Part shown: positions 10,401 to 48,834 of the stretch, in pieces
Position numbering within the stretch: position 1 is the stretch's first letter
Layout of the letters: each line of letters starts with the position of its first letter
Origin: Arthrobacter sp. 31Y
GTDB taxonomy: Bacteria > Actinomycetota > Actinomycetes > Actinomycetales > Micrococcaceae
NCBI RefSeq assembly: GCF_000526335.1
Contig: NZ_JAFW01000001.1
Coordinates: 3,720,001 to 3,784,000, forward strand
Length of the DNA: 64,000 bases
Reading direction: 5' to 3'
The notes under the pieces: generated by a model
What the model saw: the letters and a program-made list of their open reading frames with translations, nothing else
Database searches by the model: none
What the model was told of the DNA's origin: nothing
Position numbers and translations under genes: made by a program

Positions 10401-10518
10401 CCCACCGCCTCCCTAACCTCGCTGCGCTTCGGCCAGGGAACCCGGGCGGCGTGGGCCCACCCACCGCCTCCCTAACCTCGCTGCGCTTCGGCCAGGGAAC
10501 CCGGGCGGCGTGGGCCCA
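10401..10518. repeat. Tandem pair of 59-bp repeats after purH
   Basis: Two identical 59-bp units, 10401-10459 and 10460-10518, each with CTCGCTGCGCTTCGGC at its core flanked by CCCTAAC and CCAGGGAAC arms. The unit is partly palindromic, like a REP element. A diverged third copy in the opposite orientation lies at 43995-44050. Confidence 0.95.
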
Positions 10519-22273: not shown

Positions 22274-23344
22274 TCACCGAGCGTCGTTGGGGTATCGGAT
22301 GCCCAGCTGTGACCGCACCCCGTCAAAAAGGCGCATGACGTTGACCGAGTCCTCCAGCGGCATGACCGGGCTTTCGATCAGACCCTGCTGGATGCAACGG
22401 GTGACTTCTCGGAGTTCGTAGGTGTATCCGATGCCCACCACGTCAAACTGCTCGCGGCGCGGCTCGTCCCAACCAATCCTGATCAGCAGCTCACGGGGGT
22501 TGTTTACGGAGCCAACGGTCTGCAGGAACCCGAGCCCGCCGGCTACGGTGGCAGTCCGGGGTCCATGTGCCATCAGCGAGGACGTCAGTTGTGCCTGAGC
22601 ACCAGTGTCGTAGCCGAGGGTCAGGGCATTCTGGCTGTCCACGCCGTCGTCGTTGAGCGTGCCGATCGCGGTGACCGACTGCGGGAAGCCCAGCGTTCCG
22701 AGCGCCCACAGCAGCGGGTAGACGGTGATGTCCAGGAGCGCTCCGCCGCCGTCCTTGAGTGCCCAGATTCGTGCGGCGGGATCGTAAGGTGCCGGGAATC
22801 CGAGGTCGGCACTGACCCACTGGATCTGTCCAAGCTCACCGGAAGCCGCGATCTCGAAGGCCCGCTGAATGCTCGGCAGGAAACGGCTCCATACAGCTTC
22901 CATGAAGAACACGTTCTGCTCCCGGGCGAGCTTCACCAGCTCGGTTGCTTCGCGGGCGTTGATGGTGAGGGCTTTCTCGCACAAGACGTGCTTCCCTGCC
23001 CGCAGAGCTGCTGAGGCAATCTGGAAATGTTGGGCATGGGGAGTGGCTACATAGACCACGTCCACGGCGGGATCCTCGAACAGACGCTGGTAGCCGGGTA
23101 CGCCGCCGTCGTCCCCGTAGCCCTTGGTGAAGCCAAACGTGCGGGCGAACGTATCCGCGGCCGCCTGGGTGCGGGAGCTCACCGCATACAATTCCGCATC
23201 TTCAAGCAGTGCCAAGTCCTGAGACACACTGTTGGCGATGTTGCCCGTGGACACCACTCCCCACCGCAGCGGCCGCCCGGTTGCTGCCCGGGGATCCTGG
23301 TTGGTCTGGGTGGAAAGCCACGGCACGGCGATAGGGAGTGTCAT
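22274..23344 (-). CDS. Gfo/Idh/MocA-family NAD(P)-dependent sugar oxidoreductase
   Basis: 356 residues. The N-terminal Rossmann fold begins RWGVVSTGNIANSV; the VVYVATPHAQHF and HVLCEKALTINAREA blocks give the conserved Glu-Lys that contacts cofactor and substrate. The C-terminal domain has ALLDITVYPLLWAL with the usual Asp and Tyr. Similar proteins act on sugars, inositol or trans-dihydrodiols; the substrate is unknown here. Start 23344 precedes the domain; an in-frame ATG about 100 codons upstream lies in the repeat array and gives a Pro/Arg-rich tract, so it was rejected. Confidence 0.88.
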   Translation of the reverse strand: MTLPIAVPWLSTQTNQDPRAATGRPLRWGVVSTGNIANSVSQDLALLEDAELYAVSSRTQAAADTFARTFGFTKGYGDDGGVPGYQRLFEDPAVDVVYVATPHAQHFQIASAALRAGKHVLCEKALTINAREATELVKLAREQNVFFMEAVWSRFLPSIQRAFEIAASGELGQIQWVSADLGFPAPYDPAARIWALKDGGGALLDITVYPLLWALGTLGFPQSVTAIGTLNDDGVDSQNALTLGYDTGAQAQLTSSLMAHGPRTATVAGGLGFLQTVGSVNNPRELLIRIGWDEPRREQFDVVGIGYTYELREVTRCIQQGLIESPVMPLEDSVNVMRLFDGVRSQLGIRYPNDAR

Positions 23345-23401
23345 GCGCTTTATCCTCTCACTTCGGGCAGGCGTTGGCGGGCGTTGGCGGTGACAGTGGC
23401 T

Positions 23402-24107
23402 TGGTGCGCACCCTTTAACGCCGACCGCGCCCGTAACCTCTGGTGCGTGCGGCGGGTACGGGTGCGCTCGTGGGGAACAGGGGTGCGCCCGGAGGGAACA
23501 TGGGGTGCGCTCGTGGGGAGCTTGGGGTGCGCTGGTGGGGACGGGTGCGCCCGGAGGGAACATGGGGTGCGTGCGGCGGGATCGGGTGCGCCCGCGGGGA
23601 GCTTGGGGTGCGTCGTGCACGGGCGGGGGCAAGGCTGGCCCTGGCAAGCGGGGGTTGAGCGGGCTTGGTGCGCACCCTTTTACGCCGATCGCGCCCGTAA
23701 CCTCTGGTGCGTGCAGCGGGTACGGGTGCGCCCGTGGGGAACAAGGTGTGCGCCCGGCGGGATCGGGTGCGCTGGCTGGGGTGGGGCAAGGCCAGCCCTG
23801 GCAAGTGGGGGTGAGTTTGGCTGGTGCGCACCCTTTTACGCCGATCGCTCCCGTAACCTCTGGTGCGTGCGGCGGGATCGGGTGCGCCCGCGGGGAGCTT
23901 GGGGTGCGTCGTGCACGGGCGGGGGCAAGGCCGGCCCTGGCAAGCGGGGGTAGTTTGCCTCGTGCGCACCCTTTTACGCCGATCGCGCCCGTAACCTCTG
24001 GTGCGTGCGGCGGGTATGGGTGCGCCCGCGGGGAACAAGGGGTGCGCCCGGAGGGAACATGGGGTGCGTGCGGCGGGAAGGGGTGCGCCCCCGGGAAACG
24101 GGCTGGT
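23402..24107. repeat. Hierarchical repeat array of GGTGCGC units
   Basis: Fills the 798-nt gap between divergent genes. Four cores of about 39 bp start near 23402, 23667, 23823 and 23961; each begins GGTGCGCACCCTTT (last copy CGTGCGC) and ends CCCGTAACCTCT. Each core is followed by a run of 18-22-bp units that begin GGGTGCGC or GGTGCGT, in varying number (about 8, 3, 2 and 5). The first three runs end with a spacer containing GGCAAGG and CCCTGGCAAG. Open frames here are by-products of repeat length and GC content. Function unknown; see findings. Confidence 0.9.
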
Positions 24108-24142
24108 AGCGTCGGGCTGGAATATGCGGTTATTGGGGGATT

Positions 24143-24517
24143 GTGGAAACGAAAATAAAGCGGCCTTCAGCGGGCCCGCGAATTGCGTCAATGGTGCTCG
24201 GCGTGGTGGGCTCAGTGCTTTCCCTGCCGGTGGCAGCGTTGCTCGGTTTTGCTTTAGGGCTTTACCCGAGCCGAATGGAATGTACTACGGGCACGTACGG
24301 CTCAGGCTGCTATGAAGGCGATCTTCTCAATGCCACTGTCCTTTTCGCTCTGGTTTACCTGCCATTCCTTCTGCCGACGGTCGCCATTACCCAATTGCAG
24401 CGGAGCAAAGGGCGCAGAACCACGGATTTCATACCCTTGATCGTTCTGTGCGTCGTGCCAGCGGCAGTGATTGTCCTGTGTGCCGTACTGGCTCTGGTAT
24501 CTCCAGGCTCGCTCTGA
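24143..24517 (+). CDS. Small membrane protein, unknown
   Basis: 124 residues from a GTG start. Three hydrophobic stretches (MVLGVVGSVLSLPVAALLGFAL; FALVYLPFLLPTVAI; FIPLIVLCVVPAAVIVLCAVLAL) with a cysteine pair in the first loop (MECTTGTYGSGC) likely facing outside. No family recognised. Base use is lower in GC than neighbours at the start. Sits beside the repeat array. Confidence 0.6.
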   Translation: METKIKRPSAGPRIASMVLGVVGSVLSLPVAALLGFALGLYPSRMECTTGTYGSGCYEGDLLNATVLFALVYLPFLLPTVAITQLQRSKGRRTTDFIPLIVLCVVPAAVIVLCAVLALVSPGSL

Positions 24518-24642
24518 TGTCCCCGACACGGTAAGCATTCTGTCAAGTCATAGGAATGCCCGGGGTACCGAAATTCCTCGCCTAGGCTTAGGCAATCATC
24601 CCTCGCAGAGGTTCTGTGGGGAGTTACCGAAATGGAGCAGGG

Positions 24643-25734
24643 ATGGGTACTTTTCGGCGCGTCATTTTGCCGGTTGCCTGGTTGTTGGTTTTCGCGGTTA
24701 TTGCGGTGGCCTTAATCAAAATTGCCTTTGTGGATGGCCTGGAATCGGCCGCTGCGGGGCCCGCCCCTCTGGCGCAGGTGGATATTCCGGTGGTCCCGGC
24801 AACCAGGGCTACCGTCACTAACACCGTGGAAATCAAGGGCACCGTCCAGAGCGACCCCGCCGAGACCGTCCGCAGCACCTCAGCCGGAAAAGTAGTGCAG
24901 GTCTTTGTTGAGCAAGGCGCAACCGTGGCCAAAGGTGACGCCCTTTTCCAGGTCAAAGCCGAGCGCGCAGTCACCACCCAGCAGCCGTCACAGGACGGCC
25001 CGCAAACAGCGCCCAAGCCTGTGTACGACTACTTCGACATCCTCGCTCCGAGGGCCGGAACCTTGCAGCAGCTCACCACCCTCATGGACCAGCAGGTCAC
25101 TGTGGGCGAGGCAGTGGGAAAGATTGATCCCGGAACGTACACGGTGGCCGGTTCCGTGACGGCCGCCCAACAGTACCGCCTGCTGGGGAAGCCCGGTCCT
25201 GCCGAGATTGCCTTGGTGGGTGGTCCTGCTCCGTTCCAGTGCGCCGATGTGACGCTCAAGAACAACGCGTCCGACGACGGCGCGGCCTCGGGCGGGCTGG
25301 CCGCCACAGGTGGGGGTGTCGGAAGGGGCATCGGCGCAGCCATGGTTGGTCCCGGAAGCGGAAGCCAGCCAGAAGAAGGCGGCACTCCCACGGGAACGCT
25401 GAGCTGCCCGATTCCTTCGGGCCAGCAGGTCTTCGCAGGACTTGGCGCCACCATGACGGTCAGCGCCGGCGTTGCTCCCGACGTCGTGACTGTTCCCCTG
25501 ACGTCAGTAAAGGGCAGCGTGAAGGATGGGATTGTGTGGATCGCGGGCCCGGGAGGAACGGGTGCCGCTCCCGAGCAGCGCACTGTTCAGCTGGGTCTCA
25601 ATGATGGTTCCGTGGTGGAGGTGACCTCCGGCTTGGCGGAGGGCGAGCAGGTCCTCGAATTCGTTCCCGGGGCACCGGCCGTTGAGGATCCCATGATGGG
25701 TCCGGGCCAGGCCGTCTACGGTCCGATGGGCTAA
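24643..25734 (+). CDS. Periplasmic-adaptor-like (HlyD/MacA-type) exporter subunit
   Basis: 363 residues. One N-terminal membrane anchor (ILPVAWLLVFAVIAVALI), then a barrel/lipoyl-type region (VEIKGTVQSDPAETVRSTSAGKVVQVFVEQGATVAKGDALF), then a second half-motif (DILAPRAGTLQQLTTLMDQQVTVGEAVGKID). A Gly/Ser-rich low-complexity insert lies near residues 215-255. Start 24643 has GGAG upstream. First gene of a three-gene MacAB-like operon with the ATPase and permease that follow. Confidence 0.85.
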   Translation: MGTFRRVILPVAWLLVFAVIAVALIKIAFVDGLESAAAGPAPLAQVDIPVVPATRATVTNTVEIKGTVQSDPAETVRSTSAGKVVQVFVEQGATVAKGDALFQVKAERAVTTQQPSQDGPQTAPKPVYDYFDILAPRAGTLQQLTTLMDQQVTVGEAVGKIDPGTYTVAGSVTAAQQYRLLGKPGPAEIALVGGPAPFQCADVTLKNNASDDGAASGGLAATGGGVGRGIGAAMVGPGSGSQPEEGGTPTGTLSCPIPSGQQVFAGLGATMTVSAGVAPDVVTVPLTSVKGSVKDGIVWIAGPGGTGAAPEQRTVQLGLNDGSVVEVTSGLAEGEQVLEFVPGAPAVEDPMMGPGQAVYGPMG

Positions 25735-25738
25735 GAGC

Positions 25739-26467
25739 ATGGACGAAACAAGCAAAGAAACACTGGTCAGCCTGCGGTCAGTGACCCGATCGGTGAGGCT
25801 GCCTGATGATCAACAACTGAATATCCTCCGGGGTATTGATCTGGAGGTTCGCAGTGGAGACCACATTGCCATAGTTGGCCGTTCCGGTTGCGGCAAATCA
25901 ACACTGCTCAACCTGCTGGGCCTTCTGGACATCCCGACCTCGGGGGAGCTTGAGTTCCTGGGGCAGCCCGCGGACAGGCTGGGCAACAACGCCCGCGCAC
26001 GGTTGCGGGGCTCCACAGTTGGCTTCGTTTTCCAGCAGTTCAACCTGTTGCCCGGCCGCAGCGCCTTGGACAACGTCATTACGCCGCTGTTCTATGCCAA
26101 AGGCAAGGAATTCTGGCGGCGCCGCGAGATTTCCATGGACATGCTGGACCGCGTTGGCCTCGCTTCCCGGGCCAACACCATGCCCAACATGCTCTCCGGA
26201 GGCGAGCAGCAGCGCGTGGCGATCGCCCGTGCCTTGGTGCGCAGGCCGAGGCTGATCCTGGCCGATGAACCAACCGGTGCGCTGGACGTGGAAACGGGGC
26301 AGTCCGTCATGGCTCTCCTGGACACGGTGGCCACAGAAACAGCTGCGGCTTTGGTGACCATCACGCACGACACCAACGTCGCAGCCTTGGCCCGGGCTTG
26401 CTACCGTTTGGATTCCGGGGTGCTCAGCCCGCTGCCGGCGGCGCAGACTGCAGGGGTGGGCGCATGA
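25739..26467 (+). CDS. ABC transporter ATP-binding protein, MacB/LolD type
   Basis: 242 residues. Walker [13 protein letters not shown]-loop [19 protein letters not shown], signature [16 protein letters not shown], Walker [13 protein letters not shown] and H-loop ITHD are present. Starts 4 nt after the adaptor stop and overlaps the permease by ATGA. Confidence 0.93.
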
Positions 26468-27645
26468 CCGGCTTCATTTCCACGCTGGTTGAAGCGTGGC
26501 AGGAACTTCGTATCAACAAGGTGCGCATTCTCCTGGCCCTTCTTGGCGTCGCCTTGTCCGTTGCGGCGCTGACTTCGGTGGTGGGCGTAGGAAGTTTGGC
26601 CCGCGAAGGAATGAAGGTTCAGTCCGAACGAAATGGTGGCCGGGTGGCCACGCTCTCCTTGATGGTGCACGGGCAGAACATGCCGGATCCGGCAAAACTT
26701 GAGAAGGCCTACCAAGGCATTCAACAGCGCTACGGCATCACTACTTCCACGCACGTCAGCCAGACCCAGGCTGGCTTTCAGTTTCCCCGCGGCGTGACTA
26801 CTGTCAACGTGACCATTGTGGATGTGGGCTATGGCATCATCCACAGGGTCCCGCTGCAGCAAGGTAGCTGGTTCGCGCCCGACGACGGCAAAAGGCTCGC
26901 GCCCGCCGTCGTCGTCTCCGAAGCCTTCTACAACCAAGCAGGCAGGCCCAATCTGACCACCCACCCCACGGTGACCATCCCGGGCGACCAGCCGGCCACG
27001 GCGGTGATGATCGGCGTCGTGCCTGATTCCTATCCGGACACTCCGCCATCGGCGTTCATCCTTGCCGAGGGCGCGGCCATGACCGGGATCAAACCCCAGG
27101 TGTCCGAGTTCAAAATGTGGGTGGGCGAGGAACAGGCCGGAGCCCTCACTGCGGCAATCACCGCCGATCTCCAAGGCCAGTTCCCCGGTTACTACGCCCA
27201 AGCCAGCCGCATGGACTATGCCGCATGGGGTGATCCTTTGGCTCCCGTCCAGCTGGTGGTTGGCGGCGTGGCCGGTCTGGTGCTCCTGCTCGGAGCCGTG
27301 GGAATGCTCAATATCTCCATGGTGACCGTGCGCTACAGGGTCCGTGAAATAGGCATCCGGCGAAGCTTCGGTGCAACGTCCGGACGGATTTTTGTGGGTG
27401 TCATGATGGAATCCGTGGTGGCCACTGCGGTTGCCGGCCTGGCCGGAGTCATGCTGGCAGTCGCAGTGGTGAAGCACCCGTGGATCGAATCGAAGGTGGC
27501 GCCGGGTCTGACCGAATACCCGGCCTTCCCCATTGAGGCCGCCCTGATGGGCTTCGGTGCAGCAGTCCTTGTGGGCGCACTCGCCGGAGCCATTCCTGCG
27601 CTCGTGGCGGTGCGCGTCAAGGTCATCGACGCGATCCGGTTCTGA
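26464..27645 (+). CDS. ABC transporter permease, FtsX/MacB type
   Basis: 393 residues. An N-terminal membrane helix (RILLALLGVALSVAALTSVVG), a large extracellular MacB_PCD domain, then three C-terminal helices with VRYRVREIGIRRSFGAT, the conserved loop of FtsX-like permeases. With the two upstream genes it forms a mechanotransmission-type export or envelope system of unknown substrate. Its 3' end overlaps the convergent ATPase gene by 23 bp. Start 26464 chosen by the ATGA overlap. Confidence 0.9.
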   Translation: MTGFISTLVEAWQELRINKVRILLALLGVALSVAALTSVVGVGSLAREGMKVQSERNGGRVATLSLMVHGQNMPDPAKLEKAYQGIQQRYGITTSTHVSQTQAGFQFPRGVTTVNVTIVDVGYGIIHRVPLQQGSWFAPDDGKRLAPAVVVSEAFYNQAGRPNLTTHPTVTIPGDQPATAVMIGVVPDSYPDTPPSAFILAEGAAMTGIKPQVSEFKMWVGEEQAGALTAAITADLQGQFPGYYAQASRMDYAAWGDPLAPVQLVVGGVAGLVLLLGAVGMLNISMVTVRYRVREIGIRRSFGATSGRIFVGVMMESVVATAVAGLAGVMLAVAVVKHPWIESKVAPGLTEYPAFPIEAALMGFGAAVLVGALAGAIPALVAVRVKVIDAIRF

Positions 27646-46209: not shown

Positions 46210-46247
46210 ACGATCAAGCCTACCTGTGCTGCCTTGTTGTACTGTTA

Positions 46248-46328
46248 ATGGGTCGCAACTGGCGTTGGGTGGACTACCACCAGGGAGCGGCAATCATGAA
46301 GACCACGGATCGTACGCCTGGGCCGAGG
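46248..46328 (+). promoter_or_regulatory. ZTP (pfl motif) riboswitch upstream of glyA
   Basis: Shows the pfl/ZTP consensus in order: GGGTCGCAACTGGCG (46250-46264), GGGTGGACTACCACCAGGGA GCGG split by a hairpin (46267-46290), and a conserved CGTACGCCTGGGCCGAGG element (46311-46328) after a variable loop. ZTP riboswitches sense 5-amino-4-imidazolecarboxamide riboside phosphates, which accumulate when 10-formyl-THF is low, and switch on folate/purine genes. Here it precedes glyA and folD, both one-carbon genes. A possible expression-platform stem (GGTCATG with CGTGACC) follows. Confidence 0.88.
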
Positions 46329-46445
46329 GTCATGTCTTACCGTTGCACGCACGTGACCGATCCCTCCGTCAAAAAGGGGACGCGGGAATGCTGCTGCCGG
46401 TAGCCTGACCTGTAGCACCACCCGTTGCCTAGCCAGGAGATTTCC

Positions 46446-48782: not shown

Positions 48783-48834
48783 GGGGTGCCCTGACTACGG
48801 GGTGCCCTGATTACGGGGCGCCCCGATTACGGGG
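48783..48834. repeat. Three 16-bp tandem repeats after folD
   Basis: Units GGGGTGCCCTGACTAC, GGGGTGCCCTGATTAC and GGGGCGCCCCGATTAC. They lie in the 160-nt gap between folD and the exporter operon; no gene is seen there. Confidence 0.85.

Follow-up and report, generated by a model that had tools for sequence, protein, structure and literature searches.

A copy-number-variable GGTGCG array in Arthrobacter sp. 31Y is one example of a clade-limited family of composite intergenic repeats

We analysed a 64,000-nucleotide stretch of the Arthrobacter sp. 31Y chromosome (hereafter the window), in which a 706-bp repeat array lies between an oxidoreductase gene and a set of genes for HlyD-like, ABC-type and FtsX/MacB-like proteins (Table 1). 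The neighbouring gene calls confirmed that the array occupies an intergenic region between divergent genes, as a first-pass annotation had stated. The hexamer GGTGCG occurs 23 times in the array versus 36 times in the remaining 63,294 bp of the window, and 1000 base shuffles of the array averaged 1.4 occurrences, with at most 6 in any one shuffle.

Table 1. Features at and around the repeat array (window coordinates)
Feature	Position	Strand	Details
Left neighbour, Gfo/Idh/MocA oxidoreductase	22274..23344	-	Pfam PF01408, PF22725
Core 1, 60-bp head-to-head unit pair	23407..23466	+	R2 match 66.2 bits
Core 1, sequence plan	23407..23466	+	CGCACC-N13-CGCGCC-CGTAACCTCT-GGTGCG-N13-GGTGCG
Core 1, hairpin fold	23407..23466	+	-34.9 kcal/mol, z -3.4
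Direct GGTGCG run behind core 1	23461..23612	+	Spacings 18-22 bp; TRF rows 23442-23614, 23460-23612
Spacer with GGCAAGGCTGGCCCTGGCAAG	23613..23663	+	
Core 2	23671..23730	+	R2 match 66.5 bits
Direct units behind core 2	23725..23771	+	
Core 3	23827..23886	+	R2 match 66.1 bits
Direct units behind core 3	23881..23908	+	
Core 4, top-scoring core of the genome	23965..24024	+	68.4 bits; fold z -5.0
Direct units behind core 4	24019..24107	+	TRF 24018-24097
Right neighbours: small ORF, HlyD-like protein, ABC ATPase, FtsX/MacB permease	24143..27645	+	

The plan of the array was as first described: four 39-bp heads, starting at 23403, 23667, 23823 and 23961, are each followed by direct units that begin with GGTGCG at a spacing of 18-22 bp, and whole cores are themselves tandemly duplicated 138-264 bp apart. 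The run lengths, put earlier at about 8, 3, 2 and 5, were nearly right; our recount gave 9, 4, 3 and 5 units, including the unit right behind each 39-bp head, and one unit of the second run is a GTGTGCG variant. A spacer with GGCAAGG...CCCTGGCAAG, described as shared, was present behind runs 1, 2 and 3 and absent behind run 4. Likewise, the palindrome attributed to every core was found as exact GGTGCGCACC at the opening of three of the four, core 4 opening with CGTGCGCACC instead. We rejected a coding array as unlikely, because none of the four open frames that cross the array matched Pfam and the number of cores differs between species. An assembly artefact, also raised at first pass, is unlikely because the family forms arrays in other assemblies too, and several of those are single-contig.

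A DNA search across the entire 5.08-Mb genome found further copies of the element. With a 60-column family model trained on 24 copies (20 of them from 31Y, four from genome G008), we found 27 cores in 19 intergenic regions at E<1e-7, one opposite-strand echo being excluded. Each core spans 60 bp, in which two ~19-bp units (GGTGCG-N3-GGCG-N2-AA-N-G) lie head to head across a fixed 10-bp centre, CGTAACCWCT; most are extended on one side by at least one direct unit of 18-22 bp. All 27 cores lie between genes as called by a home-made codon-usage gene finder. By our reading, the 19 gaps comprise five convergent, nine tandem (five sense and four antisense) and five divergent gene pairs, with one upstream gene, in locus L104, weakly predicted. 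Because these proportions resemble the background in a 200-kb sample of the same genome (34 convergent, 111 tandem and 34 divergent of 179 pairs; P = 0.29 for at least five convergent gaps of 19), the elements have no clear gene-orientation preference. Most copies outside the window begin with GCCGCACC, GGCGCGTCC or similar, and GGTGCGCACC is special to the window site; it is therefore improbable that the family is recognised through this palindrome, the role proposed for it at first pass.

Searching other genomes for the core, as the first-pass annotation recommended, was productive: the structured model matched 32 of 198 same-genus genomes, including that of 31Y (30 of 187 among good genomes), with per-genome match numbers scored up to 27 and both strands of one palindrome possibly counted. 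We scanned 84,980 named species for an exact 20-base pattern; the scan, which may have excluded records close to that of the window, returned 32 stretches, all from Paenarthrobacter (nitroguajacolicus, nicotinovorans, histidinolovorans and sp. CM16) or from Arthrobacter-labelled strains (9V, EpRS71, MYb23, cf158, ISL-95 and M2012083). In a single-gene tree, the 26 element-bearing genomes examined separated from the four element-free genomes that the tree covers. Some species of the clade have few matches (three each in G160 and G209), so that no single site seems essential. The companion check of other replicons came back empty, the family matching none of 72,556 plasmid and 50,697 phage records, and we rejected a plasmid or phage origin. 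No title or abstract describing the element family was found in the open-licence literature on Arthrobacter, Paenarthrobacter and Micrococcaceae repeats; a REP survey has one table row for Arthrobacter livingstonensis (PMC12306157). The array is one copy-number-variable example of a clade-limited composite intergenic repeat family, which is new and of a known general kind, that of composite intergenic repeats such as BOX.

We then compared sites between species. Element sites whose flanks match those of an element site in 31Y made up 14 of 15 in G186, 12 of 12 in G188, 9 of 10 in G193 and 5 of 7 in G168 (where locus L231 was matched through one flank only), that is, 40 of 44 over the four other species. 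The window site was examined in 30 genomes through the oxidoreductase gene, which served as the anchor (found in all 30 genomes at E<=1e-60), plus 1.5 kb beyond. A script listed eight cores at this site in G046 (seven once one that overlaps its neighbour is discounted), six in G061, four in 31Y and in G097, three in G193 (one overlapping, hence two), two in G150 and in G047, and one each in G186, G188, G073 and G008; truncated remnants were seen by eye in G174 and G089, and the other 17 genomes had none. The comparison of array length between strains that had been advised thus gave a core number from 0 to 7. On a gene tree made by a quick method, and with remnants counted as present, presence changes at least five times and copy state at least nine times.

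The genes on the right of the array also vary. The HlyD/ABC/MacB-like operon (window 24143-27645) is missing up to the permease tail in four relatives (loci L152, L153, L154 and L159). In G186, G188, G150 and G073, read by eye, the array directly abuts sequence of the permease-gene tail (window 26464-27645); alignment confirmed the junction in G186 and G188, and the G188 alignment restarts at window 27609, a GGTGCGC. These junctions would fit a deletion of the intervening genes with one end inside the array.

A second variable place is the gap between hpt and ftsH (L107 5092-6911, L180-L197), which looks like a gene-gain spot and holds, depending on the species, lipoprotein-like, AbiEi-like (PF13338 below cut-off), LacI-like regulator and other genes. 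Two genes there are bordered by inward-facing elements. The idea of a mobile cassette is weak, since single genes or single elements occur in place of a clean unit: the first gene is accompanied by one element in G128 and G160 and by an apparent degenerate element (by eye) in G052, and G085 has the second gene only. Behind hpt in G193 (L183, about 600-850), GGTGCG units alternate with the GTGTGCG variant; this run is a different local expansion of the same family.

To what extent the elements are constrained was measured at matched sites. Over 31 orthologous pairs from 13 sites (single or first cores; flanks of at most 120 bp with many gaps, one too-short upstream flank being dropped), the 37 near-constant columns were identical in 1047 of 1147 comparisons (91%), the remaining 23 columns of the core in 498 of 713, and the aligned flanks in 965 of 1472 upstream and 1536 of 2318 downstream positions; variable core columns and flanks are 66-70% identical between species. 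Among 86 cores (17 sites, six genomes), identity in the variable columns was 66.1% for same-site orthologues and 87.0% within one array, as expected of tandem duplicates, and fell to 49.8% for pairs of sites in the same genome and 48.5% where both site and genome differed, versus a composition expectation of 50.8%. The corresponding values for the near-constant columns were 92.1%, 94.4%, 89.7% and 89.2%, a contrast that is inflated because these columns were picked from the same data and the elements were detected by their likeness to the consensus. Since between-site identity in the variable columns is at the composition level, different sites of one genome do not convert each other, and we rejected homogenisation by gene conversion. 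Judged from these alignments, key bases of the element appear to be kept by selection.

These data bear on the possibility that the family is a non-autonomous mobile repeat (MITE- or REP-like), fossil or parasitic and of no host function, whose arrays grew in tandem by slippage or unequal recombination. A dispersed family requires a copying mechanism, tolerance of insertions between genes accounts for the location, hpt adjoins ftsH with no gene or element between them in seven of nine outgroup genomes fetched, and BOX, RUP and SPRITE repeats are argued to be mobile parasites in one study (PMC3049150). However, the near-constant columns persist where the variable columns have drifted between sites to composition level, and the sites are mostly common to species rather than newly inserted. 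Furthermore, our transposase test, a search for the Y1 (PF01797) RAYT enzyme, matched 0 of 20 genomes (12 element-bearing and eight not) versus 5 of 14 control genomes; we rejected a RAYT-driven REP on the 12 element-bearing genomes. We regard a functionless mobile repeat as a credible but rather unlikely account.

Among 395 genomes of the taxonomic family, the model matched 25 at E<=1e-4, including 14 outside the genus, and 20 places were fetched from 10 of the 14. Ten places, in genus g45 (G529, G402 and G435), are variants of CGCACC-CGTTAACGACGAA-CGCACC-centre-GGTGCG-TTCGTCGTTAACG-GGTGCG; they share the 60-bp 6-13-6-10-6-13-6 layout of GGTGCG boxes with a different linker, and some carry further units. 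The layout was part of the search model, whereas the further units outside the 60 bp were not. A 19-bp period was found in 11 of 11 distinct g45 units and in 18 of 33 units of 31Y. Of all the data, the g45 copies hint most strongly that the unit layout predates the clade. Convergent gene pairs flank nine of the ten g45 elements; in one g45 sample such pairs make up 27 of 163 (P about 8e-7). The other ten places, in g38 and g40, are hairpins, four of them followed by a T run; they may be chance picks of a structured model, and we do not call them family members. No double-box hairpin emerged from a 60-bp inverted-repeat scan of 200 kb from each of three genomes (one g38, one g45 and one free of the element), a scan of low sensitivity that reported just one of six known cores in 200 kb of 31Y.

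We next considered whether the element acts as RNA, that is, as a transcribed hairpin serving as a factor-dependent terminator, an mRNA 3'-end stabiliser or a small RNA. Fold energies lie below those of shuffles: z-scores span -2.8 to -7.8 in Paenarthrobacter (window cores, -2.8 to -5.0), and the g45 value is -12.7. Stem pairing reached 83.7% versus 35-55% when partners were slid by one to three columns. The convergent setting of the g45 copies, linkers that differ between genera yet pair inside each genus, and the T runs of the g38/g40 look-alikes are also in its favour. Compensatory change in the stem is not: when 111 distinct cores were aligned on sequence only, changes on both sides fell in 33 cells versus 45.6 in shuffles and in 9 pairs versus 8.6, and 83.7% of cells were paired versus 85.1%, all 500 shuffles reaching the observed value. 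A 24-core set behaved alike (83.0% versus 84.3% paired; 5 pairs versus 3.6, reached by 106 of 500 shuffles), so that neither set showed stem covariation above shuffles, including within Paenarthrobacter. In the 3' GGTGCG boxes the T is 93-95% constant, and its 5'-arm partner is A in only 42-51%; A or G, either of which could pair with it in RNA, make up 73-75%. As far as the alignments indicate, the stem keeps specific bases more than it keeps pairing. The window region 23200-24300 contained no intrinsic terminator (G+C hairpin then T run), and the window region scanned contained no sigma-70-type promoter; both candidates were rejected. So was a known RNA family, Rfam returning only miRNA-model hits at E 2 and 4. 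The tandem sites, five sense and four antisense, and the five divergent sites speak against a transcript as well, and the lack of a gene-orientation preference favours a role at the DNA level. An RNA-level role is, on balance, unlikely.

The first-pass annotation also likened the array to iterons, and direct repeats of 18-22 bp would suit the iterons of an integrated replicon or of a replication origin. Iterons would sit at a single locus beside an initiator gene. Instead, the array is chromosomal and lies 1.31 Mb from dnaA (at 2.434 Mb), the element recurs in 19 chromosomal regions, no replication-initiator domain turned up in the five adjacent window genes that were scanned, and the plasmid and phage records are matchless, leaving an iteron origin with next to no credibility.

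MIRU-VNTR loci of Mycobacterium are intergenic tandem units with lineage-dependent copy number, and the array resembles them as tandem units between the genes of an actinomycete; to our knowledge, MIRUs have not been described as head-to-head pairs around a fixed centre. Promoter tandem repeats of M. tuberculosis are reported to be phase-variable (PMC12817950). The earlier remark that no described element has such a plan was too strong, since the two-level plan of pneumococcal BOX elements (boxA, variable tandem boxB, boxC) is similar (PMC3049150). Both are composite interspersed repeats with stem-loop potential, a variable internal tandem module (here the 9, 4, 3 and 5 units per core) and variation between strains. 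The likeness to BOX is one of plan by description, and Streptococcus pneumoniae belongs to a different phylum; here, in contrast, one inverted unit pair is joined to tandem units, the whole core is itself tandemly repeated, and most sites are common to species. BIMEs are clusters of small inverted repeats between genes (PMC3049150), and our elements too are extragenic inverted repeats that fold as hairpins; unlike BIMEs, which number in the hundreds, they occur in tens of copies and have a conserved asymmetric centre.

Our leading interpretation, to which we assign a probability of roughly 45%, is that the family is a domesticated composite repeat whose unit would be a double-stranded DNA site for a candidate sequence-specific protein. 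The binding-site reading leads because conservation falls on specified bases and the stem lacks covariation, and in this sense the earlier suggestion of a binding-site array for a DNA-organising protein holds in spirit. The family would have spread in an ancestor, probably by a mobile mechanism since lost, and would then have been retained because its specified bases are read as double-stranded DNA by the putative protein. With head-to-head and direct units combined, an array would recruit several molecules of the protein, which would thereby bend, bridge or coat DNA, and array length would tune occupancy. Several observations count against a protein site: hairpin folding and strong stem pairing are needless for a plain one, the convergent setting of nine of ten g45 elements suits a transcript-end role or tolerated insertion, and some species of the clade have few matches.

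The placement of the family on the chromosome may hint at a nucleoid role. The 16 merged loci all lie between -1.27 and +1.57 Mb of dnaA; the widest stretch free of loci spans 42.8% of the chromosome (P about 0.004), and 912 kb separate the point opposite dnaA from its nearest locus (P about 0.0005), both P values assuming uniform placement and the pattern being noticed post hoc. Four other genomes mostly agree on this depletion around the terminus, and are not independent because most sites are shared. To see whether poor conservation near the terminus could account for the depletion, we compared 400 kb of the 31Y chromosome there with fetched G186 stretches, which covered 84-100% of each 20 kb at 4.13-4.43 Mb and almost none of the final 100 kb (0.725 overall versus 0.827 near the origin); one or two sites would be expected in 300 kb. 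PMC4726725 gives about 70 NBS and 24-52 SBS, the chromosomal palindromic sites of the nucleoid-occlusion proteins Noc and SlmA, as under-represented in Ter regions, and our elements are likewise tens of palindromic sites that may be depleted near the terminus; yet one weaker G186 copy (2.283 Mb, 38.3 bits), genuine-looking by eye, lies near its terminus. NBS (14 bp) and SBS are, in that text, single palindromes with a known protein, whereas here the sites are composite arrays and the protein a candidate. A more specific version of the binding-site reading, in which the elements would be platforms for a putative actinobacterial chromosome-organising or nucleoid-occlusion protein, strikes us as a long shot; on this view they would be kept at fixed gaps across roughly the two thirds of each chromosome arm nearer the origin and be absent around the terminus, and the length of an array would set the local protein load.

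For Paenarthrobacter, a common soil genus, the family provides a defined conserved non-coding element with natural copy-number variants at matched sites of many species. It makes testable whether dispersed intergenic repeats are parasites or recruited protein-binding platforms, and the arrays are usable as VNTR-type markers for the genus. Elsewhere in the window, we observed a ZMP-ZTP (pfl) riboswitch at 46245-46330 (42.7 bits; gathering score 39), a perfect 59-bp tandem duplication at 10401-10518, and 3.2 copies of a 16-bp unit, GGGGTGCCCTGATTAC, at 48783-48834.
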